NCBI GenBank assembly: GCA_025144245.1
Contig: JALXXC010000011.1
Span: forward strand, 20,988-84,987
Length of the DNA stretch: 64,000 nt
From: Corynebacterium sp. p3-SID1145
Lineage (GTDB): Bacteria > Actinomycetota > Actinomycetes > Mycobacteriales > Mycobacteriaceae
Direction: 5' to 3'
Both the position numbers and the translations under genes were made by a program. Numbering within the stretch: position 1 is the stretch's first letter; the number at the start of each line of letters is the position of its first letter. Of the stretch, positions 289 to 57,037 are shown piece by piece. The notes beneath the pieces are model-generated. The model was not told where the DNA came from. It was given only the letters and a program-made list of their open reading frames with translations, and did no database searches.

Positions 289-2589
289 GTGTTCTATAAG
301 TGGGGCCAGTTTGCCTACCGCCACCGCCGGATCATTCCGGTGGTGGTCATCGCCATCATTCTGCTCATGCAGGTGCTGTGGGGCTCCAAATTGGGCGACC
401 GGCTCTCCCAGGAGGGCTGGGAAGACCCGGGCGCAGATTCCACCACAGCCGCCGCAGTCGAGGAGGAGGTCTTCGGCCGCGACAACAACGGCGACGTGAT
501 CGTCCTCGTCAGCGGCAACATCAACGACAAGACGGTGATGGCCGAGGCGAACCGGCAGATCACCGCGCTCAAGGAGCAGTACCCGGAGCAGATCGACCAC
601 ATCACCAGCTACTTCGAAAAGCCGAACCCGCAGCTGCGCTCCGCGGACGGCACGAAGGCTTTCGCCGCGATCGGCCTGAAAGGCGACGGGGAGCAGACGC
701 TAAAGGACTACCGCGCCATCGAGGACGCCCTCAACGACATCACATTGCCGGAGGGCGCAGACGTGCAGATCGCTGGCGCCACCGCCATCGCGGACGCGCT
801 TGATCAGGGCATGGCCGACGACATCGCCCGGGCGGAGAAAATCGGCCTGATTTTCGTTGCTGTCATCTTGCTCTTCGTCTTCGGCGGCGTGGTCGCAGCG
901 GCGATGCCGCTGGTGGTAGGCATCTTGTCCATCCTCGGCTCCCTGTCCGCTTTGTCGCTGCTCGCGCAGGTGCAACAGGTCAATGTCTTCTCACAGTCGG
1001 TGATCACGCTGCTGGGCTTGGGCCTGGCCATCGACTACGGCCTGTTCATGGTCTCCCGCTTCCGCGAAGAGTTGGACCAGCGCGGGGATTCCCCGGAAGA
1101 CATCGAGGCGGCTGTCGCGGAGACCACCACCGCAGCGGGAAAGACAGTGTTCTTCTCCGCGCTCATGATCGGTGTGGCTCTCTCAGGTCTGCTGATGTTC
1201 CCGCAGGCCTTCCTCAAATCGGTAGCGTACGGCGCGATCAGCGCAGTGGTGCTCGCGGCGATCATCTCAGTGGCGGTGCTGCCGGCGCTGTTCAGCATGT
1301 TGGGCAGGAACATCGATAAATTCTCGGTGCGCCGCACCAACCGGAAGGCCCGCCGCATTGAGAACACCGTCTGGTACAAGATTCCCGCGTGGGCGATGCG
1401 CCACTCCAAGCCGGTCATCGTCGGAGTTGCGGGCGCCCTGCTGCTGCTCACCCTGCCGATCGTGGGCATCACCTTCGGCGGCATCAACGAGTCCTACCTG
1501 CCGCCGTCCAACGCGGTGCGCCAGGCGCAGGACGATTTCAACGAGACGTTCCCCGCCTACCGCACCGACCCGGTGAAGCTCGTCGTGAAGGGTGCCAACA
1601 ACGACCAGTTCGTGGACATTCTCTGGCAGACCCGCAGCGTGACCGGTTTGGCGTCGCCGATGGAGAAGACCAAGTCCACCCCCGACGGAACATTCGTCAT
1701 GGCGGGCACGCTGGCTGACAGGAACGGCGGAGAAGACGTCGTCAAGCAACTGCGCGCGATCGACGTGCCGGACGGCGTGGAAGTGTACGTCGGCGGCACC
1801 CCGGCGATGGAGGTCGAGTCGATCGAGGCCCTGCTTGAGCGCCTGCCGTGGATGGCTGTGTACATGGTGCTGGCCACGTTCCTGCTGATGGCGGTGCTGT
1901 TCGGCTCGATGATTCTGCCGGTGAAGGCGGTGCTGATGAATATCCTGGGCATCGGCGCCACCCTGGGCTTCCTCACCCTCGTCTTCGTCGACGGGCTGGG
2001 TGCGGGCGTCCTCGGCTTCACCCCGGGCCCGCTCATGAGTCCGGTGCTGGTGCTCATCATCGCGATTCTGTACGGCTTGTCCACGGACTACGAGGTCTTC
2101 CTCGTCTCCCGCATGGTCGAGGCGCGCAACAAGGGCGCGGACACGGACCAGGCGATCAAGTACGGCACGGCGCACACGGGCTCGATCATCACGGCCGCGG
2201 CGCTGATCATGATCGTCGTCGCCGCGGCATTCGCGATGAGCGAGATCGTGATGATGAAGTACATCTCCTACGGCCTCATCATTTCGCTGGCGCTCGACGC
2301 CACGCTGATCCGCCTGCTCCTCGTCCCCGCCATCATGCACGAGCTGCGCGAGGACAACTGGTGGGCGCCGCGTTGGATCAAGCGCACCGCGGAATCGTTC
2401 GGGGAGGGCGGCGACACGAAAAAGCAGCAACAGCAGCAGCTTATCGACGTCCAGTCCCACCCCCGCACCGGCGACATACCCGTCGGGGAGACCGTGCTGG
2501 CGAGCCAGCACGCCCGCTCCGGTGTCTCCGCGGACGAGGACACGCAGCTCATCCCGTTCGACGAGCTGATGCGCCGGCTGAACGGGTAG
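289..2589 (+). CDS. mmpL3: MmpL3-type RND exporter, trehalose monocorynomycolate transporter
   Basis: This 766-residue inner-membrane protein has the two-half architecture of MMPL/RND transporters: TM1 near residues 15-33, a periplasmic loop, a five-helix bundle, a second loop and a second bundle. The proton-relay Asp-Tyr pairs are present in both halves: D249-Y250 in LAIDYGLFMVSRF and D600-Y601 in LSTDYEVFLVSRM. In mycolate bacteria this family exports trehalose monomycolate to the periplasm. The location next to accD3-pks13-fadD32 and the mycolyltransferases fits (CmpL1 is the C. glutamicum equivalent). The start is a GTG preceded by a strong purine-rich site (GAGGAGGG). The C-terminal cytoplasmic tail is short and carries a run of five glutamines near residue 711, unlike the long tail of mycobacterial MmpL3. 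The next gene follows after 10 bases. Confidence 0.88.
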   Translation: MFYKWGQFAYRHRRIIPVVVIAIILLMQVLWGSKLGDRLSQEGWEDPGADSTTAAAVEEEVFGRDNNGDVIVLVSGNINDKTVMAEANRQITALKEQYPEQIDHITSYFEKPNPQLRSADGTKAFAAIGLKGDGEQTLKDYRAIEDALNDITLPEGADVQIAGATAIADALDQGMADDIARAEKIGLIFVAVILLFVFGGVVAAAMPLVVGILSILGSLSALSLLAQVQQVNVFSQSVITLLGLGLAIDYGLFMVSRFREELDQRGDSPEDIEAAVAETTTAAGKTVFFSALMIGVALSGLLMFPQAFLKSVAYGAISAVVLAAIISVAVLPALFSMLGRNIDKFSVRRTNRKARRIENTVWYKIPAWAMRHSKPVIVGVAGALLLLTLPIVGITFGGINESYLPPSNAVRQAQDDFNETFPAYRTDPVKLVVKGANNDQFVDILWQTRSVTGLASPMEKTKSTPDGTFVMAGTLADRNGGEDVVKQLRAIDVPDGVEVYVGGTPAMEVESIEALLERLPWMAVYMVLATFLLMAVLFGSMILPVKAVLMNILGIGATLGFLTLVFVDGLGAGVLGFTPGPLMSPVLVLIIAILYGLSTDYEVFLVSRMVEARNKGADTDQAIKYGTAHTGSIITAAALIMIVVAAAFAMSEIVMMKYISYGLIISLALDATLIRLLLVPAIMHELREDNWWAPRWIKRTAESFGEGGDTKKQQQQQLIDVQSHPRTGDIPVGETVLASQHARSGVSADEDTQLIPFDELMRRLNG

Positions 2590-2599
2590 CCCACGCACC

Positions 2600-3631
2600 A
2601 TGACGAACACCCGCGCGTGGATCCGCTGGCTGGCACCGCTGGTTGTGCTGGCAGTCGTCGCCGTGGCGTTCCGCGACCAGCTGCCGTTTCTGGGTGAGGC
2701 ATTCGCCGCCCTGCGCGCGTCCTCTCCCGCTCCCGTCGCGGCGGCGGTGCTGTGCGCGGTGCTGTCCATTCTGGCGATGGCGGTGGTGATGCGCATCCTG
2801 CTCACCAGCGACGGTGTGCGCGTGAACATGGGCAACGCCAGCGCCATCACCCTGGCCAGCAACGCCTGGTCCACCACAGTTCCGGGCGGGCCGGCGATTT
2901 CCGCGTGGCTGACCTTCAAGGTGCACCGCTCCTGGGGCGCGTCGGTGGGGCTGTGCGGCTGGTTCTTCGTCATTTCCGGTGCGATGTCGACGGTGTGGCT
3001 GGTGGTCATCGGCATCGCCGCCGTCATTTTCCTCGGCGCGCGGCTGTCTGTGTGGGCGCTCGTCGGCTCGCTCATTGTCGCTCTCACCGCGATCGCGGGG
3101 TTGTTCTGGGCGATCTACAACCCGGACATCCTCCGCCGCTGGGTGCGCTACCTGCCGCAGAAGGTACGCGACAAAGCCACCGACTTCGTCGACCAGCTCG
3201 CCGCGATCCGCATGACACCGGGCGCGTTCCTCGCCGCAGCGACGTTCTCCTTGCTCAACCGGCTCATCGACGCCACCACCCTCTACTTCTCCACCGCCGC
3301 CGTCACCGGGACACTTCCCGGCCTCACCGCAGGCCTGAACGAGACGACAGTGCAGGGCGTGGCGCTCGCCTTCATCATGACGAAGCTCGCCGGTGCCGCG
3401 CAGGTGACACCGGGCGGCATCGGCACCGTCGAGCCCGTTGCCACCGCATCACTCGTCGCATCGGGCCTGACGCTTGTCGACGCCACCGCCGCCACCCTCA
3501 TCTACCGCATCATCTCCTTCGCCCTGATCACCGCCATCGGCTGGGTCATCTACCTTGTCGCCTACGCCGAGAAGGGCTTCATGATCGGCCGTGCCGAACA
3601 GGAGGAAGGCACCGAACCCCTGCCAAATTGA
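2600..3631 (+). CDS. YbhN/LPG-synthase-type integral membrane protein (flippase-like)
   Basis: The 343-residue product is mostly hydrophobic with about eight membrane spans and belongs by appearance to the lysylphosphatidylglycerol synthase transmembrane (UPF0104/YbhN) family. Typical features are the SNAWSTTVPGGPAISAWLTF segment near residue 90 and the GAAQVTPGGIGTVEPV segment near residue 270, which resembles the conserved PGGIG motif of the family. Substrate is unknown; homologues next to mmpL3 are thought to act in lipid handling or translocation, and its 10-base distance from the exporter gene suggests co-transcription and translational coupling. No soluble acyltransferase domain is fused to it, so lysyl-lipid synthesis is unlikely. 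Confidence 0.7.
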   Translation: MTNTRAWIRWLAPLVVLAVVAVAFRDQLPFLGEAFAALRASSPAPVAAAVLCAVLSILAMAVVMRILLTSDGVRVNMGNASAITLASNAWSTTVPGGPAISAWLTFKVHRSWGASVGLCGWFFVISGAMSTVWLVVIGIAAVIFLGARLSVWALVGSLIVALTAIAGLFWAIYNPDILRRWVRYLPQKVRDKATDFVDQLAAIRMTPGAFLAAATFSLLNRLIDATTLYFSTAAVTGTLPGLTAGLNETTVQGVALAFIMTKLAGAAQVTPGGIGTVEPVATASLVASGLTLVDATAATLIYRIISFALITAIGWVIYLVAYAEKGFMIGRAEQEEGTEPLPN

Positions 3632-3656
3632 TCAATCAGGTCTAACGTGGCCTTAT

Positions 3657-6845: not shown

Positions 6846-6848
6846 CGC

Positions 6849-8609: not shown

Positions 8610-11600
8610 TTAATCCACCTCGGCGATCCATTCGGCGATGTGCTTGCCCACGATCCCCACCGCGGGTTCATCCACAACTGCCAGGTGGTCGCCCGGCAGC
8701 TGCACGATAGTCAGGTCCTCCACGATAGCGGCCCAGCCACCGTCCGGGTCGATCTCCGCGTAAGCCGGTTCAAGCATGATCGCGCCGTCGTGCATGCGCT
8801 CCGCACGGAAGAGCAACACGGGCAGATCCACGTCGACCCAGTCCTGCATGTCCACCTTGGCCAGGATCTGGTTGTCCACGAAGGACGCTCGCTGGTGCTC
8901 CAGCACACCCGCGGACAAACCGTGCTCGGAAGCGTCGGTGGTGGCCAGGAACTCGGCGAGCATGGTCAGCAGGGCATCCTCGCCGGCGGATTCAAGCAGC
9001 TCGTACGGAACCTCGAAGTCGAGGCCGTAGGTCTCTTTCGCGAATGCGGCGTAGCGCTCCCAGCGCTTCTTCGTCTCCTCCGACGTGTCCGGCGTCGGGT
9101 GGGCCGGCTGCGCGGTATCCAGCAAGGCGATGAATTTCACCGGGATTTCCGCGTCGGTGTCCTTGCGCTGTTGCAGCTGGTGCGCGACCTCGTAAGCCAG
9201 GGCACCGCCGAAGGACCAGCCGGCGAGCACGATCGGCTGGCCTGCGGAAAGGCGCTCGATGTCCGCGAGGTAGGCCGCGGCGCGGTCCGCGAGGCTGCCC
9301 TCGAGGCGCTCCAGGCCGTAGACCGGCACGTTATCCGGCAGGCGACGAGTCAGCGGCTGGTAGACCACGCTGGATCCGCCGGCCGGATGGAACACGAAGA
9401 GGGACGGGGTGGTCTCGTCGGTGCGCTCGCGCAGCACGCGGACGTTGCCGTCCACCGGAGTCTCCAACCCCTCGCGTACCGTGTCGGCCAGAGGCTCAAG
9501 CGTCCCGGCGGAAAGCACATCGTCTGCCGTGACCTCGACACCGGAGCGCTCCGCCAGGTGCGCGGCGATCTGCTCAGCCTGCCCGCGGGCGATCTCCGGC
9601 AGCGGGGAGGTCACACCTGCGGCGGCCTGGCCGGCGTACTTGGCCCAGGCGCCGAAGACCATGCGCTCGGATGCATCGCGCGGGGCGACACCGACGCCGG
9701 CCCCGGCATCCTTCGCCTTCTCCACCGCGTGCGCCGGGTCGCGGTGCGGGTCGTTTTCCGCCATCGGCTGGGCGGCGTCGGCGTTGCCGGCGACGGCTTC
9801 CTCCACCATGGCGATAACGTCGGCGACTGACGCGTCGCGGAGCGCCTGCACCTGCAGCGGCGGGATCAGGAAGTCGTTCTCGACACGGTTCTTGATGCGC
9901 ATACCCATCAGGGAGTCGAGCCCGAGGTCGATCAGCGGAAGTTCGTCGGGCAGGTCATCGACGTCGTAGCCCATAGACTCAGACACGATCGCGCGGAGAC
10001 GCTCCTCAACAGTCTCGGTCGCCGGGTCCCACCGCACGACATCGATGTCGTCGGTGGCGCCGCGGATCAGTTGCTCGCGGGCGGCCTGCACTTCCGGCGC
10101 CGGCTTCGGGGCCTCGGTCACACCGGGCAGGGACGCCTGGCCCATGTCCAGCGTGGAGGCGAAGCCTTCCGCAACGAGGATCGCGCCGTTGTAGACAGTG
10201 ATGGTCAACCCGCCCAAGCCACGGCGGACCATGGTGGTCAGTTCGCCGGCTGCGGGCAGCGGCGCACGCTCCTCGACCGCGACGACGTCGGCCTTCGCAT
10301 CGACCTCGGCGGCGGCGAGCTCCACGATCTGCATCGCGGAGAAGATCTGGTCGGCCGGCGCCGCGTAGACGATCGTGCCGTCCGGCAGGGTCACCTTCGC
10401 GCCGAGCGGGCCGGAGCCGGAGGAGCTCGGGCGCGCGGATGTCCACAGTTCGTTGCGGTGCAGCGGCGTGTGTGGAACGTCGGCGCGGGCACCGTCGCCG
10501 GCAAGCGCGGCGAAGTCCACCGGCATGCCGGAAACGTAGAGCTTGGCGGCGAGATCGAGCAGCGTGCCTGGCTCGCTCTCCTTGCGCTTGAGGGCGAAGA
10601 GCAGCTGGGTGTCGGGCTTGCCCACGGTAAACGCCGTGTTCATCATGCCCATGATCGCCACCGGGTTCGGGGAGATCTCCACCAGGGTCGTGTGGCCCGC
10701 GGCGAGCGCGGCCTCGGTGGCGTCCTGGAACAGCACCGGCTGGCGCGTCATGCGGATCCAGTAGTCCACGTCATGGATCGTCTCGCCAGCACGGTGAGTG
10801 CCGTCGACGGAGCCGAAGTGCGGGATCCGCAGCGGCTTCGGTTCGATGCCTGCGATGTCGCCGGCGAGCTCACCGAGAATCGGGTCGAGCATGCTCGTGT
10901 GGCCCGCGCCGCGGACATTCAGCTTGCGCGCGAACTTGCTCTCCGCCTCGAGAGCCGCGACCAAATAGTCCACGGCCTTTCCGGGGCCGCCCACCGTGGT
11001 CATGCCTGGGCCCGCATAGACGGCGGGCTCGACACCAGCAGCTTCCGGGTGCTTATCGACGAAGCCCTCAAGCTCCTCCCGTGACAACTCCACCACGGCC
11101 ATCGCGCCTTCCTGGTCGGTGCCCTCGACCGTCTTCTCGCCCTCGCCCATCAGGCGGGCGCGGGTGCAGGCGATCAGCATGGCGTCCTCGGCGCTCAAGC
11201 CGCCGGCGGCGTATGCCGCGGCAATCTCTCCCATGGACATGCCCATGGTGGCGGCCGGGGTGATGCCGTAGCTGGCCAGCAGGTCCGTCAGCGCAATCTG
11301 AATGGCGGTGACGGTGACCTGGCCGGTCTCCGTGTCGTAGGTCTGCTCGTCGTCGAGAATGATGTCCAGCATCGACCAGCCGGATTCGAAGTCGACGACC
11401 TTGTCCAGTTCTTGGATTCGGGCGCGGAACGCCGGTGACAGCTCCACCAGCGGCTTGACCATCTTGCGGTGCTGGGAGCCGAAACCGGAGTAGACGAACA
11501 CCGGGCCAGCGGTGGACGGCGTATCCGCCGCCGCCACGCCCTGGGTGACCTTGCCCTCGGCGACGTAGCCGAGGCGCTTGCGCGCTTCCTCCACGGTGGA

Positions 11601-13397
11601 GGCGGTGACCACCGCGCGGGAACGGCCGTGGTTGCGGCCGGCCAGGGTGCGGGCGACGGCGCGCAGGTCGGTGCCATCGGTCAGAGATTCCGCCACAGCG
11701 GCGGCCAGCTCACGGCGGCGCGACGGCAGCAGGCCGGAGACCGGCAGCAGCACCGTGTTCGGGTTGGCCGGATCGACCAGGCCGGCGGACGGCTCGCGGG
11801 CAGGAACGTCGTAATCCGCCGGGTCGAAGTCACTGACCACGATGTGGGCGTTGGTGCCGCCGAAACCGAAGCCGGACACGCCGGCGGTGCGACGGCCGGA
11901 GTACTCGGGCCACTCACGGGGATCCTCGACGACCTCAATCTTCGTCGCGTCGAAGTCGATGAACTTGTTGCCGGTGGTGAAATTCGCCGTCGGAGGAACT
12001 GTGCGGCGGGTCAGGGCCTCGATCACCTTGATCATGGCCACCACGCCGGCGGCGGACTCGGAGTGGCCGATATTTGACTTCGCCGAGCCAAGCAGCAGCG
12101 GATCCGCATCGGCACGCGCCGGACCGAGCACCTGGCCGAGCGCAGTCGCCTCGATCGGGTCGCCGAGGGCAGTGCCGGTGCCGTGCGCCTCCACCAGGTC
12201 CACCGTGGCCGGGTCGATGCCCGCATCGGCGTACGCGCGGCGCAGCACGTCCACCTGGGCCTCCGGGTTGGGGGCGGTGAGACCGTTGGAGTGGCCGTCG
12301 GAATTGGTCGCCGAGCCTTTGATCACGGCGAGGACCTCGTCGCAGTCGGCAACTGCATCCTCGACACGCTTGAGCACGATGAATCCCGCCGCCTCCGCGC
12401 GGACGAAGCCGTCGGCGTCGTCGGAAAACGCGCTGATTTTCCCGGACGGGCTGATCACGCCGAGTTCAGCGAAGGCCGTGGAGATGAACGGGGAGGCGAG
12501 GATATTCACGCCGCCGGCCAGCGCCACGTCGGCTTCGCCGCCGCGCAGCGCGCGCACGGCGTGGTGGACCGATACCAGGGACGACGAGCAGGCCGTGTCC
12601 ACATTCATCGACGGCCCGCGGAAATCGAAAGCGTAGGAAATACGGTTCGGGATCACCGCACTCGACGTGCCGGTCAGCGCGTATGGGTGCGCCGAGGCCG
12701 GGTCGGAGGTGATCAGCATGCCGTAGTCGTTCGAGGACGACCCCACGAACACACCGACGGACTCCCCGCGAAGCTGGTTGGCCGGGATGTGCGCGTCCTC
12801 GAGCGCCTCCCACGCCAGCTCCAGCATGATGCGCTGCTGCGGGTCCATGTTCTCCGCCTCGAGCGGGGACAGGCCGAAGAATTCGTTGTCGAAGGTGCGG
12901 ATGTCGTCCAGGTAGCCGCCCTGGATATTCTGCTCGCGCATCTTTGCAGACATCACCGGGTCCTGCGAGTATTCGGTCCAGCGGCCCTCCGGCAACGGTC
13001 CGGTGACCGACTGGCCGGAGACGAGCAGATCCCAGAATTCGTCGACATTCTGCGCGCCCGGGAAACGGCCGGCGCGGCCGACGATGGCGATGTCGCCGGA
13101 GCCCAGGCCGGCTGTGCGCTGGGCGGGAAAGGCGGGACCGGACGTCGACAAGCGCTGTGCACCGGTTGCTGTCGGAGCGAGCAGGCCGTGCGCGAGTGCT
13201 TCCACCGTCGGGTACTGGTACGCGACCGTCGGGTCGAGCTTGATGTCCAGGAGCCGCTCGAGCTCGCCGGACAGCACGACCACGTCGCGCGAGGAAAGAC
13301 CGAGGTTATCCAGCGGAACAGACGGATCGACAGTGTCAGCCCCCGTCGCATCGGAGATCCACGACTGCAACCAGGTGGTGAGCTCGCTTTCCGTCAT
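8610..13397 (-). CDS. pks13: Polyketide synthase Pks13, corynomycolate condensing enzyme
   Basis: The 1595-residue protein has the ACP-KS-AT-ACP-TE order of Pks13. Visible sites are the N-terminal carrier serine S36 (LGLSSRD), ketosynthase C270 (VDTACSSS) with its two histidines in VEAHGTGT and SNIGHSE, acyltransferase S721 (GMSMGE), C-terminal carrier serine S1162 (LGLDSLMG) and thioesterase S1395 (AGWSFGG). It performs the Claisen condensation of two fatty acyl chains into a beta-keto mycolate precursor and its thioesterase passes the product to trehalose. The N-terminal carrier is loaded by FadD32, encoded upstream, and the extender comes from AccD3, encoded downstream. All key residues are present, so the gene looks functional. 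Confidence 0.97.
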   Translation of the reverse strand: MTESELTTWLQSWISDATGADTVDPSVPLDNLGLSSRDVVVLSGELERLLDIKLDPTVAYQYPTVEALAHGLLAPTATGAQRLSTSGPAFPAQRTAGLGSGDIAIVGRAGRFPGAQNVDEFWDLLVSGQSVTGPLPEGRWTEYSQDPVMSAKMREQNIQGGYLDDIRTFDNEFFGLSPLEAENMDPQQRIMLELAWEALEDAHIPANQLRGESVGVFVGSSSNDYGMLITSDPASAHPYALTGTSSAVIPNRISYAFDFRGPSMNVDTACSSSLVSVHHAVRALRGGEADVALAGGVNILASPFISTAFAELGVISPSGKISAFSDDADGFVRAEAAGFIVLKRVEDAVADCDEVLAVIKGSATNSDGHSNGLTAPNPEAQVDVLRRAYADAGIDPATVDLVEAHGTGTALGDPIEATALGQVLGPARADADPLLLGSAKSNIGHSESAAGVVAMIKVIEALTRRTVPPTANFTTGNKFIDFDATKIEVVEDPREWPEYSGRRTAGVSGFGFGGTNAHIVVSDFDPADYDVPAREPSAGLVDPANPNTVLLPVSGLLPSRRRELAAAVAESLTDGTDLRAVARTLAGRNHGRSRAVVTASTVEEARKRLGYVAEGKVTQGVAAADTPSTAGPVFVYSGFGSQHRKMVKPLVELSPAFRARIQELDKVVDFESGWSMLDIILDDEQTYDTETGQVTVTAIQIALTDLLASYGITPAATMGMSMGEIAAAYAAGGLSAEDAMLIACTRARLMGEGEKTVEGTDQEGAMAVVELSREELEGFVDKHPEAAGVEPAVYAGPGMTTVGGPGKAVDYLVAALEAESKFARKLNVRGAGHTSMLDPILGELAGDIAGIEPKPLRIPHFGSVDGTHRAGETIHDVDYWIRMTRQPVLFQDATEAALAAGHTTLVEISPNPVAIMGMMNTAFTVGKPDTQLLFALKRKESEPGTLLDLAAKLYVSGMPVDFAALAGDGARADVPHTPLHRNELWTSARPSSSGSGPLGAKVTLPDGTIVYAAPADQIFSAMQIVELAAAEVDAKADVVAVEERAPLPAAGELTTMVRRGLGGLTITVYNGAILVAEGFASTLDMGQASLPGVTEAPKPAPEVQAAREQLIRGATDDIDVVRWDPATETVEERLRAIVSESMGYDVDDLPDELPLIDLGLDSLMGMRIKNRVENDFLIPPLQVQALRDASVADVIAMVEEAVAGNADAAQPMAENDPHRDPAHAVEKAKDAGAGVGVAPRDASERMVFGAWAKYAGQAAAGVTSPLPEIARGQAEQIAAHLAERSGVEVTADDVLSAGTLEPLADTVREGLETPVDGNVRVLRERTDETTPSLFVFHPAGGSSVVYQPLTRRLPDNVPVYGLERLEGSLADRAAAYLADIERLSAGQPIVLAGWSFGGALAYEVAHQLQQRKDTDAEIPVKFIALLDTAQPAHPTPDTSEETKKRWERYAAFAKETYGLDFEVPYELLESAGEDALLTMLAEFLATTDASEHGLSAGVLEHQRASFVDNQILAKVDMQDWVDVDLPVLLFRAERMHDGAIMLEPAYAEIDPDGGWAAIVEDLTIVQLPGDHLAVVDEPAVGIVGKHIAEWIAEVD

Positions 13398-25410: not shown

Positions 25411-25480
25411 CGCGCATGCTTATCGACGACACGTGCACCTGATTTCAGCGCCCCTTACCGCTATCACCTCCACCACCCGC

Positions 25481-30324: not shown

Positions 30325-31648
<1,324 letters not shown>

Positions 31649-40486: not shown

Positions 40487-41121
40487 CCCGACGCTCCCGG
40501 CAGCGGGTACTCCGCCCAGCGGACCACGCGCCACCGTCCGAAATCCGCGGCGGGGTCGCCCGTCGGGCCCGCGGTGGGATCGACCACCACGTACTGGCAG
40601 TTGGGCAGGTAGCTCGCCTCGGCGAAGTCCGGGTCGATCTCGCAGGCATTCGCGGCGAACGCGCGGATCGCCCCGCCGTGGGACACCGCAACGGTGGTCC
40701 CCTCCTGCGCGGCGTACGGGAGGAGTCCGCCCTTGTAGCGGGAGAGGAAGATGTCGAGGGTGTCGCCGCCGTCGATAAGCGCCTCAAGCTGGCGGCGGTA
40801 GAAACCGCGGAACGCTCCCAGGTACGCCTCGTGCGCTTCGCGCGAATTGTGCATCTCCCAACGGCCAGCGTGGACTTCATGAATGCCATCCACGGCGGGA
40901 ATGTCGCTGAACCGCTCGCCGAAACCGATCTGGGCCGTCTGCTTCGCGCGCGTTGCACGCGAGGAGATCACGCGGTCGACCTCGTAGCTGTCCAGGATCT
41001 CCGCGCCCGCGCTCTTCGCCTGCTCACGCCCCAATTCTGTGAGCTCGGCGCCGGGGAGGACGGTGTCCAGCTTGTGGTCCACGTTCGAGGTGGTCTGGCC
41101 GTGACGCAGCAAGATCAGCAT
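40483..41121 (-). CDS. Histidine phosphatase (phosphoglycerate-mutase-like)
   Basis: The 212-residue protein begins with the phosphohistidine motif ILLRHGQTTSN and has a second catalytic group with VISSRATRAKQTAQ, HEVHAGRWEMH and VAVSHGGAIRAF, so both active-site histidines are present. It probably dephosphorylates a small metabolite; the substrate cannot be named. The ATG at 41121 has GGAAGGAA 6 bases upstream. It overlaps the end of pheA by 7 bases, so the two are co-translated, the same order as Rv3838c-Rv3837c. Confidence 0.9.
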   Translation of the reverse strand: MLILLRHGQTTSNVDHKLDTVLPGAELTELGREQAKSAGAEILDSYEVDRVISSRATRAKQTAQIGFGERFSDIPAVDGIHEVHAGRWEMHNSREAHEAYLGAFRGFYRRQLEALIDGGDTLDIFLSRYKGGLLPYAAQEGTTVAVSHGGAIRAFAANACEIDPDFAEASYLPNCQYVVVDPTAGPTGDPAADFGRWRVVRWAEYPLPGASG

Positions 41122-42041
41122 GATGTTCCTTCCCGGGCCGCGCGGACCCACTGTTCAGCCTGGTCGATACGATCCGGATCGACCATATGCTCCTCGCCCC
41201 CGCCGCCGAACCGCGGCCACGAACCGAGGAACGCGATGGTGGTGGTGCGCAGCCAGAGGGAGCGCAGCGCCTCCGCGACCGGCACGTCGTCGATGTGCCC
41301 GACTAGATCCACGTAGAAGTTGTACGTGTTCGCCTTCTCGCGTGTCGGGCGCGACTCGATGCGGGTGAGATCCACTCCGCGGTAAGCGAATTCCTGCAGC
41401 GCACCCACCAGTGTCCCAGGCTCGTTGGGCAATTGGAAAACCACCGAGGTGCGGTCGTTGCCGGTGCGCTGTGTGGGCACGCCGGCGCGTCCGGCGAGCA
41501 CGAACCGGGTGCGCGCCTCACTCATATCCGCGATCCCCTCCGCATGCACGTCGAGCCCGAACAGGTCCGCGGCCCGGCGCGGGGCGGCCGCGACATCGGC
41601 CTCCCCGTCGGCGACAGCTTTCGCTGCGGCGGCATTCGAGGAGGCCGCCGCGAACGGCACTCCGGGCAAGTTGTCTTCCAGCCACTGGCGGACTTGGCGG
41701 TGGGCGACCGGATGCGTCGAAAAGCGGGTAGCTTCACGCAGCTGGAAACCGGGACGGGTCATGATGGCGAAGCTGATGGGTAACTCCACCTCGCGGTAGA
41801 TCATCATCCCGCCGCCCTCAACGAACGCGTCGGACGTGCTGGTCACCGCGCCGTCCACGGAATTCTCGATCGCCACAACGGCGAACTGCGCACGGCCGTC
41901 ACGCACCGCGTTCAACGCGGCGGACGGCGACTCAACGGGCAACGGCGTGATCTCGCCCGGAATGTGGTCGCGGAACAGCCACAAGGCTTCCTCAGTGAAA
42001 GTCCCGGCAGGCCCCAGGTAGGCAACGCTCGTCGTGCTCAT
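41115..42041 (-). CDS. pheA: Prephenate dehydratase
   Basis: The 308-residue enzyme starts YLGPAGTFTEEALW and contains the dehydratase signatures NSVDGAVTSTSDAF and STHPVAHRQVRQWL, followed by an ACT regulatory domain with NEPGTLVGALQEFAYRGVDLTRIESRP (shown here in parts: NEPGTL, ESRPTR). It converts prephenate to phenylpyruvate for phenylalanine synthesis, with feedback control by phenylalanine through the ACT domain. The frame stays open upstream to 42254, but ATG 42041 with GGGAG close upstream matches the family start. Confidence 0.95.
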   Translation of the reverse strand: MSTTSVAYLGPAGTFTEEALWLFRDHIPGEITPLPVESPSAALNAVRDGRAQFAVVAIENSVDGAVTSTSDAFVEGGGMMIYREVELPISFAIMTRPGFQLREATRFSTHPVAHRQVRQWLEDNLPGVPFAAASSNAAAAKAVADGEADVAAAPRRAADLFGLDVHAEGIADMSEARTRFVLAGRAGVPTQRTGNDRTSVVFQLPNEPGTLVGALQEFAYRGVDLTRIESRPTREKANTYNFYVDLVGHIDDVPVAEALRSLWLRTTTIAFLGSWPRFGGGGEEHMVDPDRIDQAEQWVRAAREGTSC

Positions 42042-42065: not shown

Positions 42066-42776
42066 ATGACCATCGACCGGCGCCGCCTCACACTCGAGGT
42101 TCTCCTTGTCCTCGCCGTCACTTTTGGCATGTCCGGCGTGCGCGCGGCGCTCAAGCTTATCGACGCCGCCCTGTCCCCCACCCCGCTCAACCAACAGCGC
42201 ACAGTGCTTAACGACGCCACGTCGTCCCTTTCCTGGCTCGACGCCGCATTGCAACTCGCCTCAGCCGCGACCCTGCTGGCCTGGGGCGGCCTGGCCCTGT
42301 ACCTGCTCGGCGCGCATCTGCCCTGGCCCCGCTGGCGCGACTGGGTATGGGGTGCCGGGTTGGCGGCGCTGATCGGCATTCCCGGCCTCGTCCTCTACGT
42401 GATGTCCCTGCAGATGGGGTGGACCAAAGAGGTCGTACCCGCGACCGACGCCGCCAAGGTGCCCCTGCTGCTTCTCTGGTCCGCCGCGAACGCCTTCGCC
42501 GAGGAGACCGTCGTGGTCATGTGGCTTCTCACACGCCTCAAGCAGCTGCGGGTTCCTGTGTGGGGCGCGATCGCCGCCTCCGCCGTCCTGCGCGGCACCT
42601 ACCACCTTTACCAGGGCTTTTCTGCCGGTGCGGGGAATATCGCCATGGGTGTTATCTTCGCCTTCTACTTCCACCGCACCGGGAAAGTCTGGCCGCTCAT
42701 CCTGGCCCACTTCCTCATTGACGCGGTGGCCTACCTCGGTTACCTGTTCCTCGACGTGAGTTGGCTCGGGCTGTGA
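42066..42776 (+). CDS. CPBP-family intramembrane protease
   Basis: The 236-residue membrane protein has about six to seven helices and the Abi/CPBP motifs: AEETVVVMWLLTRL (motif 1, EE pair and later Arg), RGTYHLYQG (motif 2, His) and HFLIDAVAY (motif 3, His and Asp). Such proteins are glutamic-type intramembrane endopeptidases related to CAAX proteases; substrates are unknown. It starts 24 bases from pheA in the divergent direction, so the two share a very short promoter space. It carries one copy of the GCTTATCGACG motif. Confidence 0.88.
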   Translation: MTIDRRRLTLEVLLVLAVTFGMSGVRAALKLIDAALSPTPLNQQRTVLNDATSSLSWLDAALQLASAATLLAWGGLALYLLGAHLPWPRWRDWVWGAGLAALIGIPGLVLYVMSLQMGWTKEVVPATDAAKVPLLLLWSAANAFAEETVVVMWLLTRLKQLRVPVWGAIAASAVLRGTYHLYQGFSAGAGNIAMGVIFAFYFHRTGKVWPLILAHFLIDAVAYLGYLFLDVSWLGL

Positions 42777-46622: not shown

Positions 46623-47402
46623 TCAGTTCACAGTGCCTGGGGTGCGGAATGTCTCCACCGCGAGGTGCGGGTTGTCGGTGGCGAAGACATCCACGCCCTT
46701 GTCCCGGCACCAGCGCATGTGCTCGGGCTCGTTGACTGTCCACGTGTACGTCTTCAACCCGCGGTAGCCGAGCAGCTTCGGCATGCCGCGCAGGTGCGCG
46801 AGAGCCGGGCCGACACCGTATGGGCGGGAGAACATCGTGCTCGTCGGGTTCCATTTCTTCTCGCGCAAACGAAACAGGTAGAAAGTCTCCAGTTCCGGGA
46901 CGACGTGGGTGAAAAAGCGCATCGCGGAGTGGGAGAAAGAGATGAGGTGGACGCGGGGATCCTCCTTCATCCCGCGGTACCAGAGGGTGCGCACTGTCTG
47001 CTCGTCCACTTCGGGGCCGAAGCGGGTGGGGTGCTTCGTTTCGATGTAGATGTGCTTGTCGGGGTAGTCCTGCATGAGGTCCAGAAGTTCGTCGAGAAGC
47101 AGGAGCTGCTGCGGGTCGTCCTCGGTGCCGTAATTGAATTGGCGCAGGTCCGCGAAGTCCATCTTGGCGATGCGGCCGGCGCCATCGGAAGTGCGGTTGA
47201 TCAGTGCGTCGTGGTGGACGACGAGACGGCCGTCGCGGGTGAGGCGCACATCGCACTCGATCCCGTGCACGCCGTCCATCTTCAGCGCCTCGTCGAATGC
47301 GCGGAGCGTGGATTCCGGGTGGAGCCCCGACGCGCCACGATGGGCGACGATGAGCGGGTGGGTGCCGGGTACCGAAACCTGGGCGGAGGTGGCGATGGTC
47401 AT
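46623..47402 (-). CDS. glpQ1: Glycerophosphodiester phosphodiesterase
   Basis: The 259-residue protein has the GDPD motifs VAHRGASGLHPEST (residue 20), GIECDVRLTRDGRLVVHHD with the metal-binding Glu and Asp, and KHIYIETKHPTRFG. It hydrolyses glycerophosphodiesters to glycerol-3-phosphate and an alcohol. No signal peptide is present, so it acts in the cytosol. The gene sits at the glpQ1 position between pheA and sodA as in M. tuberculosis, and in C. glutamicum its counterpart responds to phosphate starvation. Confidence 0.92.
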   Translation of the reverse strand: MTIATSAQVSVPGTHPLIVAHRGASGLHPESTLRAFDEALKMDGVHGIECDVRLTRDGRLVVHHDALINRTSDGAGRIAKMDFADLRQFNYGTEDDPQQLLLLDELLDLMQDYPDKHIYIETKHPTRFGPEVDEQTVRTLWYRGMKEDPRVHLISFSHSAMRFFTHVVPELETFYLFRLREKKWNPTSTMFSRPYGVGPALAHLRGMPKLLGYRGLKTYTWTVNEPEHMRWCRDKGVDVFATDNPHLAVETFRTPGTVN

Positions 47403-47600: not shown

Positions 47601-49535
47601 ATGCTCTTTACGCCGCTCGACCCTTCGTACCGCTCGTTCCGCACGCGCGTAAGCGAAGCGGCGGAGAATATGAAGGACACAGTGACCCGTCTGTGGCCGC
47701 GCCGCACTCATGCGGTCCGCGCCCCGCTCTACGCAGTGGAGTTGCTCGCGGATTTGACGCCTGTCGTGCGCATGTCGGGTTTGCGCAGGCTCCCGGATGA
47801 TTTCGCGGGCGGCATTCTGGGCGCGGAGGTTGCGACGTGGAGCGCGATTTCGCCCTCGCTGCTACCCCACCCGTGGTGGGTGACCACGGCGAATGTGGCG
47901 ATCTGCCAGGCTGCGGGCCACTCGGTGGGCGTGGGCGCGACGAAGGCTTTCGGCATTGTCGCGGACGCGCGGCAGTGGAAGTACCCGCGCGCTTTCCGAC
48001 GCAAGGCGGCGGTCCCCGTGCAGATCGCCATGGGTGCAGTCACGGTGGCCACGTATATCTCAGCTGCTTTACGACGTTCCGAGCACGAGCGTCTCGTCGA
48101 GGACCCCACCCGGCTCGGCCCGCTGCAAACACTGGCGGGAATTGGATTGGGCTCCATCGGTTACGGTGCTCTCCTGCTGGCCGGGGAGGGAATCCAGGTC
48201 ACTGCCGACCGCTTCAATTCCGAGTTGCGCCGCTGGATGCCGCCGTTGGTGTCGTGGCCGCTGGCGATCCTGGGGCTTAGCGCCCTCGGTGCCGTGCTGA
48301 CCGACAAGGTGGTCGTGCGGCAGATCCTCAACACCGCCTACCGCAACGCCGACGAGCTCAACCGCGAATTCCTGCCCGGCGCGAATAAGCCGCGGGAACC
48401 AGAGCGTTCCGGGTCGCCGGACTCGCTCGAGCGGTGGAGGTACCTCGGCCGTCAGGGTCGCGCAGTGGTGGCGGGCGGACCCCGGAAGGCGGATATCGAG
48501 AAGGTGCGCGGCGGCGAGGCCAAGGAACCGATCCGAGTGTTCATCGGGCTGAAGGACCGTAGCCCAGAAGAGCAGGCGCAAATGGTGCTGCACGAGATGG
48601 ACCGCACAGATGCGTGGTCGCGCAGAAACATCGCCGTGCTGTCCTCGGCGGGCACCGGGTGGATCAACGACTTCCACACCTCAGGCTTCGAATTCCTGAA
48701 CCGGGGCGACTGCGCGATCGTGGCCATGCAGTACTCCTTCATGCCGTCGGCGTACTCCTACGCCTCGGACCGCGAGGTGCCTGTGCGCAGCTCCAAGGTT
48801 CTGATTTCCGCGATCAAGGAGCGCCTCGCCGGGATGCCGGAAGACGACCGGCCGCGGCTCTATGTCGGCGGGGAGTCGCTCGGCGCTTACGGCGTCGCCG
48901 ACTCCTTCGAGAGCGTCGAAGCCCTGCTTGACGGCGTCGACGGCGGCGTGTTCACCGGAGCCCCCGGATTCACCAAACGCCATATTGAACTGACCAAGAG
49001 ACGCGACCACGGCACTCCGGAACGTCTCCCGGTCGTCGACGGCGGACGCCACGTGCGCTTCACCGCGCACCCCGACCATTTGGTGAACACCTATGACGGC
49101 AGCGGTTACGAGCAAGATTGGGAATTCCCACGCGCAGTGTTCGCCCAGCACGCCTCCGACCCGGTGGTGTGGTGGGATTGGAAGCTCTTCGTTCGCAAAC
49201 CGGACTGGCTGCGCGAACCGGGCTCGCGCGGGGTGAAAGCACCTGCAGCGCAGCATGTAGATGTGCTGCAGAACATGCGGTGGGTCCCGTTCATCACCGG
49301 CTGGCAGGTCGGCGTGGACCAGTTGACCTCGCAGCAACAGCCGGGCGGCCACGGCCACCAGTACCACGACGAGACCGTCGCCTATTGGAATGCGGTGCTG
49401 GATGCCGGTGCCGGCGACGAAGAAGTCGCGAGGATCTCCGAGTGGATCCATGCGGATTCCACACGCATCCGTGCCACCGCCGCGTCCGCTGCGAAGGAAT
49501 CCGCGCAGAGCACCTTCAACCGGTCCGACACCTAA
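47601..49535 (+). CDS. Membrane-anchored alpha/beta-hydrolase family protein (Rv1069c-like)
   Basis: The 644-residue protein has an N-terminal membrane part with about four helices (residues 45-225) and a C-terminal hydrolase domain that begins near PIRVFIGLKDRSPEEQAQ. The nucleophile elbow is YVGGESLGAYG, with FTGAPGFTKRH and a terminal HGHQYHDETVAYWN segment offering the histidine. This is the two-domain pattern of the actinobacterial alpha/beta-hydrolase proteins with an N-terminal membrane domain. Substrate is unknown, probably a lipid or ester at the inner membrane. The frame is open far upstream (to 45861) only because it runs antisense to glpQ1 and DUF5926; ATG 47601 is the credible start. 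Confidence 0.82.
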   Translation: MLFTPLDPSYRSFRTRVSEAAENMKDTVTRLWPRRTHAVRAPLYAVELLADLTPVVRMSGLRRLPDDFAGGILGAEVATWSAISPSLLPHPWWVTTANVAICQAAGHSVGVGATKAFGIVADARQWKYPRAFRRKAAVPVQIAMGAVTVATYISAALRRSEHERLVEDPTRLGPLQTLAGIGLGSIGYGALLLAGEGIQVTADRFNSELRRWMPPLVSWPLAILGLSALGAVLTDKVVVRQILNTAYRNADELNREFLPGANKPREPERSGSPDSLERWRYLGRQGRAVVAGGPRKADIEKVRGGEAKEPIRVFIGLKDRSPEEQAQMVLHEMDRTDAWSRRNIAVLSSAGTGWINDFHTSGFEFLNRGDCAIVAMQYSFMPSAYSYASDREVPVRSSKVLISAIKERLAGMPEDDRPRLYVGGESLGAYGVADSFESVEALLDGVDGGVFTGAPGFTKRHIELTKRRDHGTPERLPVVDGGRHVRFTAHPDHLVNTYDGSGYEQDWEFPRAVFAQHASDPVVWWDWKLFVRKPDWLREPGSRGVKAPAAQHVDVLQNMRWVPFITGWQVGVDQLTSQQQPGGHGHQYHDETVAYWNAVLDAGAGDEEVARISEWIHADSTRIRATAASAAKESAQSTFNRSDT

Positions 49536-50173
49536 ATCCCGCAGGCCACGCCCGTGGAGTGGATCGGGCAGTAGCCGTGCGGCACCTTGTGCAGGTACTG
49601 CTGGTGCTCGTCCTCGGCCAAGTAGTAGTCAACGCCTACCCGCACCTCGGTGGTGGTGGGGCCGAAGCCGGCGTCGATAAGCGACTGGCCGTAATCGCGC
49701 ACCCAGCCGCGAATGAGCTCGGCCTCGTCCTCGCTGTCGGTGAAGAACGCGGAGCGGTACTGAGTGCCCACGTCGTTTCCCTGGCGAAAGCCCTGCGTCG
49801 GGTCATGCGCCTCGAGCGCGGCGCGGACCAATTCTTTCAGGCTGATTTCATTTGGGTCGTAGACGACCTCGACGAGCTCCACATGGTTCGTCTGGCCGGA
49901 GCACACCTCGCGGTAGGTGGGGTTGGGTGTGACGCCGCCGCCGTAGCCGACCGATGTGGACTCGACTCCGTCCATGTTCCAGTACATTTTCTCCGCTCCC
50001 CAAAAGCAACCGATGCCGATGAGCAGGCGTTTCTGGCCCTCGCGCCACGGGCCGGTGAGCGGTGTGCCCAGCACGGCGTGCGGGCGCGGGTTCGGCAGGA
50101 CCGGTTCACTGCGGCCGGACAGGGCGCGGTCCGGATCGACGAGTTGCGGGGAACGTCCGAAGAAGAATTCCAT
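49532..50173 (-). CDS. msrA: Peptide methionine sulfoxide reductase MsrA
   Basis: The 213-residue enzyme has the catalytic GCFWGAEKMYW motif (residue 51 cysteine region), TSVGYGGG, SGQTNHVELVEVVYDP and a C-terminal HKVPHGYCPIHSTGVACGI with resolving cysteines. It reduces S-methionine sulfoxide in proteins. It is divergent from sodA, another oxidative-defence gene. ATG 50173 (MEFFFGRSPQLVDP) is chosen to match family starts; ATG 50182 is in frame 9 bases earlier. Its stop overlaps the hydrolase stop region by 4 bases. Confidence 0.94.
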   Translation of the reverse strand: MEFFFGRSPQLVDPDRALSGRSEPVLPNPRPHAVLGTPLTGPWREGQKRLLIGIGCFWGAEKMYWNMDGVESTSVGYGGGVTPNPTYREVCSGQTNHVELVEVVYDPNEISLKELVRAALEAHDPTQGFRQGNDVGTQYRSAFFTDSEDEAELIRGWVRDYGQSLIDAGFGPTTTEVRVGVDYYLAEDEHQQYLHKVPHGYCPIHSTGVACGI

Positions 50174-54642: not shown

Positions 54643-54768
54643 TTTCCGGCTTCCTCACTCCCGAAATGCACGGCAGTTCCGCACCAGGTTTCGGTCTGAA
54701 GTTTGGACCAGCTAGTATGTTTTTACAAGTAAGTAACATGTGAAACCTTTTCGGGAAAGGGACTCATT
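54643..54768 (+). promoter_or_regulatory. lsr2 promoter region
   Basis: An AT-rich stretch after 54700 contains TTGGAC (about 54701) and TAGTAT/TTTTAC (about 54714-54727) as candidate promoter elements, and the ribosome site GAAAGGGA 6 bases before the ATG. The AT content suggests self-binding by Lsr2. Confidence 0.4.
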
Positions 54769-55083: not shown

Positions 55084-55107
55084 GTCACGCGTTCCGGCGC
55101 TTCCTTC

Positions 55108-55153
55108 AAGGCGTGCTGTGAATTCCGCACCGAGCGGGTTTACAGCACGCCTT
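55108..55153. terminator. Bidirectional hairpin between lsr2 and the response regulator gene
   Basis: Arms AAGGCGTGCTGT and ACAGCACGCCTT are perfectly complementary over 12 bp around a loop of about 21 bases. The right arm is inside the last codons of the response regulator gene, so the hairpin can end transcripts arriving from both sides. Confidence 0.7.
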
Positions 55154-55778
55154 GTTCGCGCGCCGAGGCCACAGCGGAGGTGCGGGAGCGCACACCGAGC
55201 TTGTCGTAGATGTGCACGAGGTGGGATTTCACGGTCGCTTCGGAGAGCATGAGCTGCTGGCCGATCTCGCGGTTGGAGGAGCCACCGGCGACGAGCTGCA
55301 GGACCTCGAGTTCGCGCGGGGTCAGCGAGGAACGAGGGCTGCGGTCGCGGGTCTGCAGGCGGCTGCGCACCACCGGCGACATCGCCTGATCGCCTTTCGC
55401 TGTTGAGCGCACCGCGGCGAGCAGGTCCGCCGGCGGAGCGTCCTTGAGCAGGTAACCGACAGCGCCCGCCTCGATCGCGCCGAGAATGTCCGCGTCGGTG
55501 TCGTAATTCGTCACCACCAGCACCTTCGGCGGATTCGCCATGGTGGCGCGGATCTGCGCGGTCGCTTCCGCACCAGTGGTCACCCGCGCGCCCTGTGCGC
55601 CGGCACCGAAGCGGAGATCCATGAGGATCACGTCGATTCCGCCTGCTTGAGCTGTCGCAATGGCCCCTTCTGCGGTGGCCACTTCCCCGACGACGATGAT
55701 GTCGTCGGCGGCCTCCAGCACAGAGCGAAGGCCGAGGCGGACGATCTCGTGATCGTCGGCAAGCAAGACGCGAATCAT
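55140..55778 (-). CDS. NarL/LuxR-family response regulator
   Basis: The 212-residue protein has a receiver domain with VLLADDHEIVR, phosphoacceptor Asp in DVILMDLRFG and the later VTNYDTD, VGYLLKDA switch residues, followed by a LuxR-type helix-turn-helix LTPRELEVLQLVAGGSSNREIGQQL. An insertion after the phosphorylation site (GAGAQGARVTTG) lengthens the receiver. It is the partner of the histidine kinase encoded upstream, with a 4-base overlap. Target genes are unknown. Confidence 0.93.
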   Translation of the reverse strand: MIRVLLADDHEIVRLGLRSVLEAADDIIVVGEVATAEGAIATAQAGGIDVILMDLRFGAGAQGARVTTGAEATAQIRATMANPPKVLVVTNYDTDADILGAIEAGAVGYLLKDAPPADLLAAVRSTAKGDQAMSPVVRSRLQTRDRSPRSSLTPRELEVLQLVAGGSSNREIGQQLMLSEATVKSHLVHIYDKLGVRSRTSAVASAREQGVL

Positions 55779-57037
55779 TCTTCCTCCTCAATCTTTCGGT
55801 TGATCCTACCCTCCCCGCCGGCAGGTGCGTCCACCGGCACGGCGACGGACACCGCGGTGGGACCTCCCGGCGCGGATTCGACGATGAACTCACCGCCGAG
55901 CTCCCGCGCGCGTGTCCGCATCGCGTCCAGCCCCAAGTGCCCGAGGCCGACGGGCTTTCCCGGTTGAGCCTCGGCATCGAAGCCACGGCCGTTGTCCACA
56001 ACATCGAGGCGCACCTCGCCGGGGGCGAAGGTCAAGGTCACGCGCGCACGCGAGGCGCCGGAATGCTTGACGACGTTGCCCACCGCCCCCTGCGCGATCC
56101 GCAACAGACCGGCCTCCACCCTCATCGGCAGCTTCTGGGCCGCACCGTCCACCTCGACTTCGATGTCCAACTCTCCCGCCTGGGCGAAAGAGTCGGCGAT
56201 GCGCTGCAACGCCTCCGGCAACGAGGTCTCCGACAGCGGAGCCGGAGTGAGAGCGGCGATCATGGCGCGGGTCTCGGAGAGGTTGTCCGCGGCCGAGTGC
56301 CGCGCCACCTCGATGCGCTCCAGCGGAGCTTTCAGTTCCTCGTCGGACAGGCGGGTCGCCCGCAAATCGCGCTCCGCAGCGTGCAGCAGCATTTGGATGC
56401 TCGACAGGGACTGCGCCACGGTGTCGTGAATCTCGTGGGCGAGACGCTGCCTCTCCTGGGCCACGCCTGCCTCGCGCTCGGAGGCCGCGAGGCGGTCCTG
56501 GGTGCTGACGAGCTCGTCGATAAGCGCCGCGCGTTCCGCGCTCACGCGCACGATGACCTTGAACGCGTACGTGATCATGACGACGACCAGTGCGGAGACA
56601 GCCGGTCCCATGACCCCGCCGAGGGTGAGGCCGTGAGGCACCTGCATGAGCACGGCGATGCTCAGCACAAGGAGCACACCGACTATGCCGATCCAGTTGT
56701 CGGCCGAGCGCATGAACAGGAAGAACAGAGTGAACACCCAGTACACGGCGACCGGGGTGAACATCATCGCCACGATCCACACACCGGTCAGGCCCAGCAG
56801 CCACACGAAGCGCCCGACGGTGTTCCAGTGCGGCATGTTCAGCGCGCCGAAGGAGTAGACGAAGCCGAAAACGACAATGAGCAGGACAAGCACCGCTCCC
56901 TGTTCCAGCGACGCCCCGACGACTCCACCGAAAGAGACCAGCAGCAGGGAGACCGTCAGCAACGCGATGCCCACGTCGAGTGCGCGCGTGCCGGGGGCTT
57001 CGGCCCCGTTGTCCCCCGCCGGTAGCATGGCTGTCAT
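55775..57037 (-). CDS. Sensor histidine kinase, HisKA_3 (NarL-partner) type
   Basis: The 420-residue protein has about six membrane helices in the first 210 residues, a dimerisation and phosphoacceptor segment RQRLAHEIHDTVAQSLSSIQ and a HATPase domain with VGNVVKHSGASRA, VVDNGRGF and GLGHLGLDAMRTRA. It resembles LiaS/DesK-type membrane-stress kinases without a large external sensor. I chose ATG 57037 (MTAMLPAG); ATG 57028 is possible. The start codon overlaps that of the divergent lipoprotein gene, so upstream control sequences of each gene lie within the other. Confidence 0.9.
   Translation of the reverse strand: MTAMLPAGDNGAEAPGTRALDVGIALLTVSLLLVSFGGVVGASLEQGAVLVLLIVVFGFVYSFGALNMPHWNTVGRFVWLLGLTGVWIVAMMFTPVAVYWVFTLFFLFMRSADNWIGIVGVLLVLSIAVLMQVPHGLTLGGVMGPAVSALVVVMITYAFKVIVRVSAERAALIDELVSTQDRLAASEREAGVAQERQRLAHEIHDTVAQSLSSIQMLLHAAERDLRATRLSDEELKAPLERIEVARHSAADNLSETRAMIAALTPAPLSETSLPEALQRIADSFAQAGELDIEVEVDGAAQKLPMRVEAGLLRIAQGAVGNVVKHSGASRARVTLTFAPGEVRLDVVDNGRGFDAEAQPGKPVGLGHLGLDAMRTRARELGGEFIVESAPGGPTAVSVAVPVDAPAGGEGRINRKIEEEE

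Follow-up and report, generated by a model that had tools for sequence, protein, structure and literature searches.

The stretch of DNA considered here (the window) spans 64 kb of contig JALXXC010000011.1 of Corynebacterium sp. p3-SID1145, whose genome of 2.37 Mb in 31 contigs we call G000; further genomes carry other G numbers, and the loci or stretches that were read carry L numbers. Among the products of the window are a UDP-galactopyranose mutase and a FadD32-like ligase that scores above the Corynebacterium-specific NCBIfam cut-off, and the closest named locus is that of Corynebacterium sp. Marseille-P3884 (98% identity in the Glf protein, 85% DNA identity across the region). Scattered through the genes of the window and the spaces between them is an 11-base word, GCTTATCGACG, which an earlier note on the window had reported in 12 exact copies, seven forward and five reverse; all 12 lie where that note placed them. 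Our analyses reveal a gapped word that is maintained at the level of DNA, occurs across the genus, and takes different forms, or dialects, in different lineages. We propose that it probably functions as a DNA uptake sequence, read by a receptor of the competence machinery.

The over-representation described by the earlier note is real and was even understated, as judged by shuffled, Markov, reversed-pattern and genome-wide counts alike. With up to one mismatch, GCTTATCGACG occurs 29 times in the window, against 1.25 expected from 100 dinucleotide shuffles, the largest of which gave 5. The whole genome holds 494 exact copies, 248 forward and 246 reverse, and the reversed-pattern control yields 0 and 1. 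In a 464-kb sample of G000, made up of 400 kb of stretches and the window, 85 exact copies compare with 0.37 expected under an order-3 Markov model and 5.1 under an order-5 model, the latter partly absorbing the motif itself. One-base variants occur mainly at position 5 (A85 C26 G28 T26), with no variant at any other position exceeding 10, and position 6 varies jointly with position 5. Since these two positions vary and the others are nearly fixed, we define the element as GCTT-NN-CGACG (GCTTNNCGACG), of which GCTTATCGACG is the favored form. In this form the genome contains 1310 copies (665 forward, 645 reverse) against 87 of the control (39 and 48), with 33 in the window and 261 in the 464-kb sample. 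The gap favors AT, a G seldom precedes the word, and the second base after it is often C.

Of the 231 coding copies in the G000 sample, 149 read in the frame L-NNC-D, as a by-product of codon usage or of a common peptide (L-x-D, V-x-K) might. Synonymous codons argue otherwise. At G|Leu|NNC|GAC|G sites of the sampled G000 genes, the rare leucine codon CTT is used in 149 of 199 cases, compared with 718 of 11863 elsewhere; only with both flanks completing the motif does it reach 75%, its share being 8 of 81 when the base before Leu is not G and 8 of 216 when no G follows GAC. Furthermore, the preferred context changes with the dialect. In other genomes with the CGACG form, CTT precedes NNC|GAC|G in 24/33 (G029), 29/37 (G012), 23/27 (G123) and 3/5 (G161) cases, and in genomes with the CGATG form introduced below it precedes NNC|GAT|G in 49/61 (G006), 27/34 (G168) and 26/29 (G118). 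The corresponding counts before GAC|G and GAT|G in motif-free genomes are 0/9 and 0/13 (G010), 1/8 and 1/6 (G015), 1/5 and 1/7 (G033), 2/27 and 0/3 (G157), 1/33 and 0/18 (G063), and 0/0 and 0/3 (G014). Because the preference needs both flanks and tracks the dialect, something acts on the DNA word itself. The synonymous-codon tests, the dialect-dependent context and the occurrence in several reading frames bear out the view that protein sequence does not explain the copies, and we regard the codon or peptide artifact as ruled out.

The word also lies outside genes, as called by our own simple hexamer caller. Between genes we find 21 of the 85 exact copies in the 464-kb sample, of which about 10% is non-coding, so the AT form is over-represented there, again at odds with a peptide origin. 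In the window, where a single intergenic exact copy had been noted, our gene calls give three (25418 and the inverted pair 36184-/36196+).

How far does the word extend beyond this strain? For the relatives, 60-160 kb each were read for words and whole genomes were searched. The exact 11-mer occurs in 0 to 439 copies across 36 congeners and in 0-5 copies in each of 24 genomes that belong to the same order but to different families. Among 151 Corynebacterium genomes, the source included, GCTTNNCGACG exceeds its control at least 4-fold in 105 (median count 1090) and 2- to 4-fold in 4, and stays below 2-fold in 42. Seven of these 42 carry GCTT-NN-CGATG (GCTTNNCGATG) instead, in 625 to 1080 copies, and an eighth CGATG genome, G167, carries both words (1337 CGATG, 352 CGACG); the GCTTNNCGATG controls in the eight genomes number 7 to 27. 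A strong CGACG or CGATG word is present in 112 of the 151 genomes. Preferred gap letters also vary by species among the named loci; in about 21 kb each, C. tapiri, for instance, has 8 copies of GCTTCTCGACG and C. xerosis has 7 of GCTTTGCGACG. Together with the genome-wide counts and the synonymous-codon tests, this genus-wide presence substantiates the earlier suggestion of a genome-wide signal.

In a tree of TadA, a pilus protein discussed below, from 34 genomes (a protein tree and no species tree), one group holds all eight CGATG genomes, the CGACG genome G012 and, at its base, the motif-free G014. G012 is C. aurimucosum ATCC 700975 and G163 is C. occultum, both identified by plasmid. Of the 39 genomes lacking a strong GCTT signal, 29 possess a TadA that shares no more than 53% identity with the G000 protein, and these 29 may use another word, CGACGCCAC. 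Four CGACG-enriched genomes (G013, G080, G101, G147) have a TadA as divergent as that of the motif-free clade. Where GCTTNNCGACG is absent (G010, G015, G033, G172 and others), CGACGCCAC/GGTGGCGTCG is over-represented and is possibly another word of the same kind; in eight GCTT-less genomes (G010, G015, G033, G105, G119, G149, G159, G172) CGACGCCAC stands roughly two- to fivefold above its control, and it is also raised in some CGACG genomes. A search for a further dialect in G014, G063 and G157 gave no clear word.

A recombination or segregation signal was among the functions considered by the earlier note, and a polar signal of the Chi or FtsK-orienting type would likewise be a short, over-represented word lying mostly in coding sequence. 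Relative to local GC skew, however, the orientations divide 148:131 (sampled stretches of five genomes), revealing no polarity, and both mix within 20-kb stretches more evenly than chance predicts, the majority strand of each stretch holding 335 of 570 sites in all against 357.8 +/- 7.1 expected (eight genomes). Totals in 105 genomes are balanced as well (56163 forward, 55959 reverse), a result that alone does not exclude polarity because replichores mirror each other. Considering also that the word differs in sequence between related groups, we judge a polar signal very unlikely, and the options of this type are disfavored.

Re-checking polarity uncovered, post hoc, a different regularity. 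Spacing is close to random (coefficient of variation [CV] 0.96 for the exact form and 1.06 for all forms in the 464 kb), and neighboring copies differ in orientation in 327 of 550 cases, above one half in each of eight genomes. Alternation is strongest for the exact form in G000 (58/82, reached by 2 of 5000 permutations); taken genome by genome, it is significant in G000 (156/258) and marginal in G123 (35/56). Pairs less than 2 kb apart number 207 in the same and 314 in opposite orientation, compared with 2135 and 2179 at 2-20 kb, and the close pairs remain skewed when G000 is set aside (98 and 141, p 0.003), bearing in mind that pairs are not independent. Convergent and divergent pairs are equally common. 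Gene arrangement would favor the opposite pattern, since most coding copies (162/231) lie on their gene's own strand. If the alternation is real, another copy facing the same way within about 2 kb would seem redundant, as it would be for a word that is read directionally.

The copies in the window are listed in the table. The inverted pair folds into a 13-bp hairpin (36181-36209, -18 kcal/mol, z -3.2) that is flanked by two called genes of the minus strand, and no T-run was seen after it. Within 80 bp of each other, the 464 kb hold this one exact inverted pair (36184-36206) and, over all forms, five inverted and five direct pairs. Since the window offers one such hairpin, lacking a T-run, and pairs are rare in the sample, a terminator role is not general.

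Table. Occurrences of the word in the window, exact copies first, with their gene context or reading frame where assigned.
Form	Position	Strand	Context
GCTTATCGACG exact	2439..2449	+	gene 289-2589, frame L-I-D
GCTTATCGACG exact	11051..11061	+	gene 8610-13397 (-), V-D-K
GCTTATCGACG exact	23194..23204	+	gene 22841-23365 (-), V-D-K
GCTTATCGACG exact	24876..24886	+	gene 23355-25340 (-), S-I-S
GCTTATCGACG exact	25418..25428	+	between called genes
GCTTATCGACG exact	30497..30507	-	UDP-galactopyranose mutase gene, A-Y-R-R
GCTTATCGACG exact	36184..36194	-	left arm of inverted pair, between called genes
GCTTATCGACG exact	36196..36206	+	right arm of inverted pair, between called genes
GCTTATCGACG exact	40770..40780	-	L-I-D
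GCTTATCGACG exact	42155..42165	+	L-I-D
GCTTATCGACG exact	49672..49682	-	L-I-D
GCTTATCGACG exact	56515..56525	-	L-I-D
GCTTNNCGACG variant, gap GA	1737..1747	-	
GCTTNNCGACG variant, gap GT	3472..3482	+	
GCTTNNCGACG variant, gap GT	13143..13153	-	
GCTTNNCGACG variant, gap AG	22067..22077	-	
GCTTNNCGACG variant, gap GT	23021..23031	+	
GCTTNNCGACG variant, gap TT	23293..23303	-	
GCTTNNCGACG variant, gap TC	24090..24100	-	
GCTTNNCGACG variant, gap TT	28879..28889	+	
GCTTNNCGACG variant, gap GT	35106..35116	-	
GCTTNNCGACG variant, gap GG	39656..39666	-	
GCTTNNCGACG variant, gap TT	41715..41725	-	
GCTTNNCGACG variant, gap AA	42206..42216	+	
GCTTNNCGACG variant, gap CT	47090..47100	-	
GCTTNNCGACG variant, gap TC	47991..48001	+	
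GCTTNNCGACG variant, gap TA	48066..48076	+	
GCTTNNCGACG variant, gap GC	55754..55764	-	
GCTTNNCGACG variant, gap GA	56065..56075	+	
GCTTNNCGACG variant, gap GA	59228..59238	-	
GCTTNNCGACG variant, gap TT	62580..62590	-	
GCTTNNCGACG variant, gap AG	63226..63236	+	
GCTTNNCGACG variant, gap CA	63939..63949	+	

The word is scarce on plasmids. Three plasmids of motif-bearing hosts (pCOCCU and pET44827 in whole, and 20.0 of the 20.7 kb of G109:C2, which matches records of two species) together carry 1 copy against 43.7 expected from approximate host density, while a control pattern gives 5 against 3.3. Left out of this count, which was limited to hosts of known motif status, were four phages (5 GCTTNNCGACG in 182.9 kb) and half of pCFAEC45971a (3 in 50 kb). 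The longest motif-free gap in the 464 kb measures 14.6 kb, about 9.8 kb being expected for the longest; it holds lower-GC genes, among them those for a Mutator transposase, a ResIII-type protein and an N6/N4-methylase, and is adjoined by a glutamine synthetase gene. The lower-GC, motif-free stretch with these three genes runs over G000 C1:270719-280801 (L014, L015).

Near-random spacing over the chromosome and depletion in plasmids are also what would be seen if the word were the binding site of a chromosome-organizing or segregation protein (nucleoid-associated, a condensin loader or similar). This is the main rival to uptake, and a non-palindromic, gapped site is typical of a sequence-specific protein; alternation could in principle reflect looping, though convergent and divergent pairs are equally frequent. 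We nevertheless consider such a function unlikely. The stretches read display no regional or replichore pattern, a change of dialect at hundreds of sites would be hard for an essential cytoplasmic protein to accommodate, and in the TadA tree nine of the genomes that fall on the motif-bearing side have no strong signal. Less probable still is that the word is kept by modification, restriction avoidance, or a bias of mismatch repair or gene conversion. Words such as cyanobacterial HIP1 are enriched for incompletely known reasons and offer a precedent, but nine fixed bases flanking a two-base gap, the lack of a palindrome, the lineage dialects, the several reading frames, and the different positions in relatives all speak against an origin of this type.

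Among the functions that the earlier note had listed, uptake fits best, and competence and pilus genes are present. G000 contains a comEA-comEC-holA gene set, DprA, and a single Tad/Flp pilus locus. This locus encodes Ssd, TadA, TadB and TadC (the two T2SSF proteins), a Flp pilin of DUF4244, and two minor pilins that resemble TadE and TadF and match the Rv3655c and Rv3654c families, with TadE scoring below its cut-off. The match to a prepilin peptidase is weak. Across the 151 genomes, ComEC, DprA and HHH_3 are each found in 151, TadA in 146 and T2SSF in 143; the best HHH_3 match in most listed genomes is a long frame that we take to be Tex-like. Genomes enriched at least 4-fold lack a match to TadA in three cases (G099, G137, G143; also G116, enriched 3.7-fold) and to T2SSF in three (G095, G099, G143). 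These assemblies are split into 30 to 380 contigs, some of them are incomplete, and in G095 the TadA gene ends up 120 bases short of a contig end; we therefore do not count the missing matches against uptake, although some of the genes may truly be absent. Column 64 of TadE is a weak lead to the receptor: 9 of 12 CGACG rows have D there, 7 of 8 CGATG rows have E, G077 being the exception with D, and G012, the CGACG genome inside the CGATG group, has D. The correlation is confounded by descent, and the column is one of two that passed the filter among 291 in Flp, TadE and TadF, the other lying in a gapped C-terminal tail.

Further variation was observed in these genes. The ComEC of G000, at L172 8418-9980 (-), has 520 residues and the Competence domain only; open frames of about 650-880 residues are found in many motif-free species and in some motif-bearing ones. 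In five genomes of the outgroup side (L247, L248, L249, L256, L187), the best TadB and TadC matches share one frame, perhaps a TadBC fusion, and the motif-bearing side has two genes. TadA alignments pass one in-frame TGA in G164, G085, G019, G018, G174 and G130, among the genomes listed.

Taken together, these data lead us to the following model. DNA bearing GCTT-NN-CGACG, preferably as GCTTATCGACG, would be bound by a receptor that belongs to the competence machinery and is most likely a Tad/Flp minor pilin (TadE or TadF). DNA of the same dialect would be taken up preferentially, handed to ComEA/ComEC and recombined, such that tagged alleles spread better than untagged ones. As a consequence of this spread, the word would accumulate chromosome-wide in both orientations, turn over in position, switch from CGACG to CGATG by lineage, and stay rare in plasmids and recent islands. 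That same-orientation neighbors are few within about 2 kb suggests that each copy may serve DNA mainly on one side, over roughly that distance. The minor pilin is proposed as reader on the strength of the Tad and Com genes present and of the Flp-pilus-dependent transformation proven in Micrococcus luteus. There TadE and TadF are among the pilus genes required, and the investigators describe tad together with comEA/comEC as frequent in actinobacteria (PMC4322843). We hold an uptake function with such a receptor to be the probable explanation. For the fuller proposal, in which a dialect-bearing system read by a Tad/Flp minor pilin acts across the mycolic-acid outer membrane, is directional over about 2 kb, is the first outside two Gram-negative families, arose independently and forms a sexual barrier, we see even chances.

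Several observations weigh against this model or parts of it. The split between dialects is incomplete: CTT is also raised before GAT|G in the CGACG genomes G000 (8/23) and G029 (4/9), and is not raised there in G012 (0/4), G123 (0/7) and G161 (0/5). Enrichment between genes is confined to the AT form, all forms together giving 30/261. In many CGACG genomes CGATG stands above its control as well (96 vs 23 in G000, 159 vs 9 in G011), reaching about one-tenth of the CGACG count. The TadA of eight genomes without a strong signal shares 55-64% identity with the G000 protein, as it does in many motif-bearing genomes. Single motif positions turn over between species: in a relative at 85% DNA identity (L021), 9 of 12 aligned sites are intact, against 28% of random 9-base windows, and in five relatives at 73-76% only 1 of 23 is, against 12-15% of random windows. 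The earlier note had taken a lack of conservation in relatives as an argument against its signal, and that lack is seen at the larger distance and not at the smaller. The word is still present in the more distant loci L022-L026, at an uneven local density (GCTTNTCGACG counts per 21 kb of 12, 3, 7, 4 and 1, respectively). Depletion in plasmids and islands would equally fit any slowly accumulating chromosomal motif. Co-occurrence with the machinery is uninformative because the genes are near-universal, motif or not, and no C-terminal metallo-beta-lactamase domain was detected in the ComEC of G000. A literature search found no report of natural competence in any Corynebacterium. Finally, G027 shows no alternation among the first 100 listed places of the exact form (50/96 switches; close pairs 11 vs 14), and alternation is not a known trait of uptake sequences, word orientation being without effect on uptake in the Haemophilus influenzae work available to us (PMC1939737).

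What would such a system mean? Corynebacterium has an outer mycomembrane, so incoming DNA has an outer barrier to pass, a situation shared with the Gram-negative families whose DNA is tagged. If the model is correct, an uptake tag arose independently in a Gram-positive genus with such a membrane, natural competence is, or was until recently, a property of most Corynebacterium species, and the genus bears on the question of why only some competent bacteria tag their DNA. Alternation of orientation, if upheld, would be a new trait, informative on how a tag is read. In practical terms, the tag could be added to DNA intended for uptake by laboratory strains, and it could help to mark foreign DNA in the sequences of these species. 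No paper that our search brought up describes a word of this kind in Corynebacterium or in other actinobacteria; bioRxiv preprints and most subscription journals were outside its reach, and a prior description is possible. Five papers contain the 11-mer on one strand or the other, and their titles deal with different matters.

To our knowledge, uptake sequences are known only from Neisseriaceae and Pasteurellaceae. Chi and words of the KOPS (FtsK-orienting polar sequence) type are over-represented short words too; these are strand-biased, unlike the Corynebacterium word. The DNA uptake sequence (DUS) of Neisseriaceae is unrelated to it in sequence. It resembles it in being short, in occurring in many copies per genome (thousands for DUS), and in forming dialects with a core, and it differs in being read by ComP on a type IVa pilus, whereas the word described here is gapped 4+5, belongs to a Gram-positive, mycolic-acid genus with a Tad/Flp pilus, and alternates between neighbors. 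The DUS dialects vary by lineage around a fixed core, consistent with phylogeny (PMC3630211). In Pasteurellaceae, the uptake signal sequence (USS) is tied to transformation (PMC7811141) and occurs in H. influenzae as a 9-base word repeated about 1300 times (PMC5217627); its sequence, host group and pilus are unrelated to those of Corynebacterium, and its pairs often form terminators (PMC5217627), which we did not see for our word. The same study scanned for spaced motifs and, in the parts at hand, lists only CRISPR-related pairs for three Corynebacterium species (PMC5217627); its pairs of 5-mers would not fit the present word. M. luteus requires two tad clusters, and the paper on it never uses the term "uptake sequence" (PMC4322843). 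It is nonetheless an actinobacterium in which, as proposed here for Corynebacterium, a Tad/Flp pilus with TadE and TadF is combined with ComEA and ComEC (PMC4322843).

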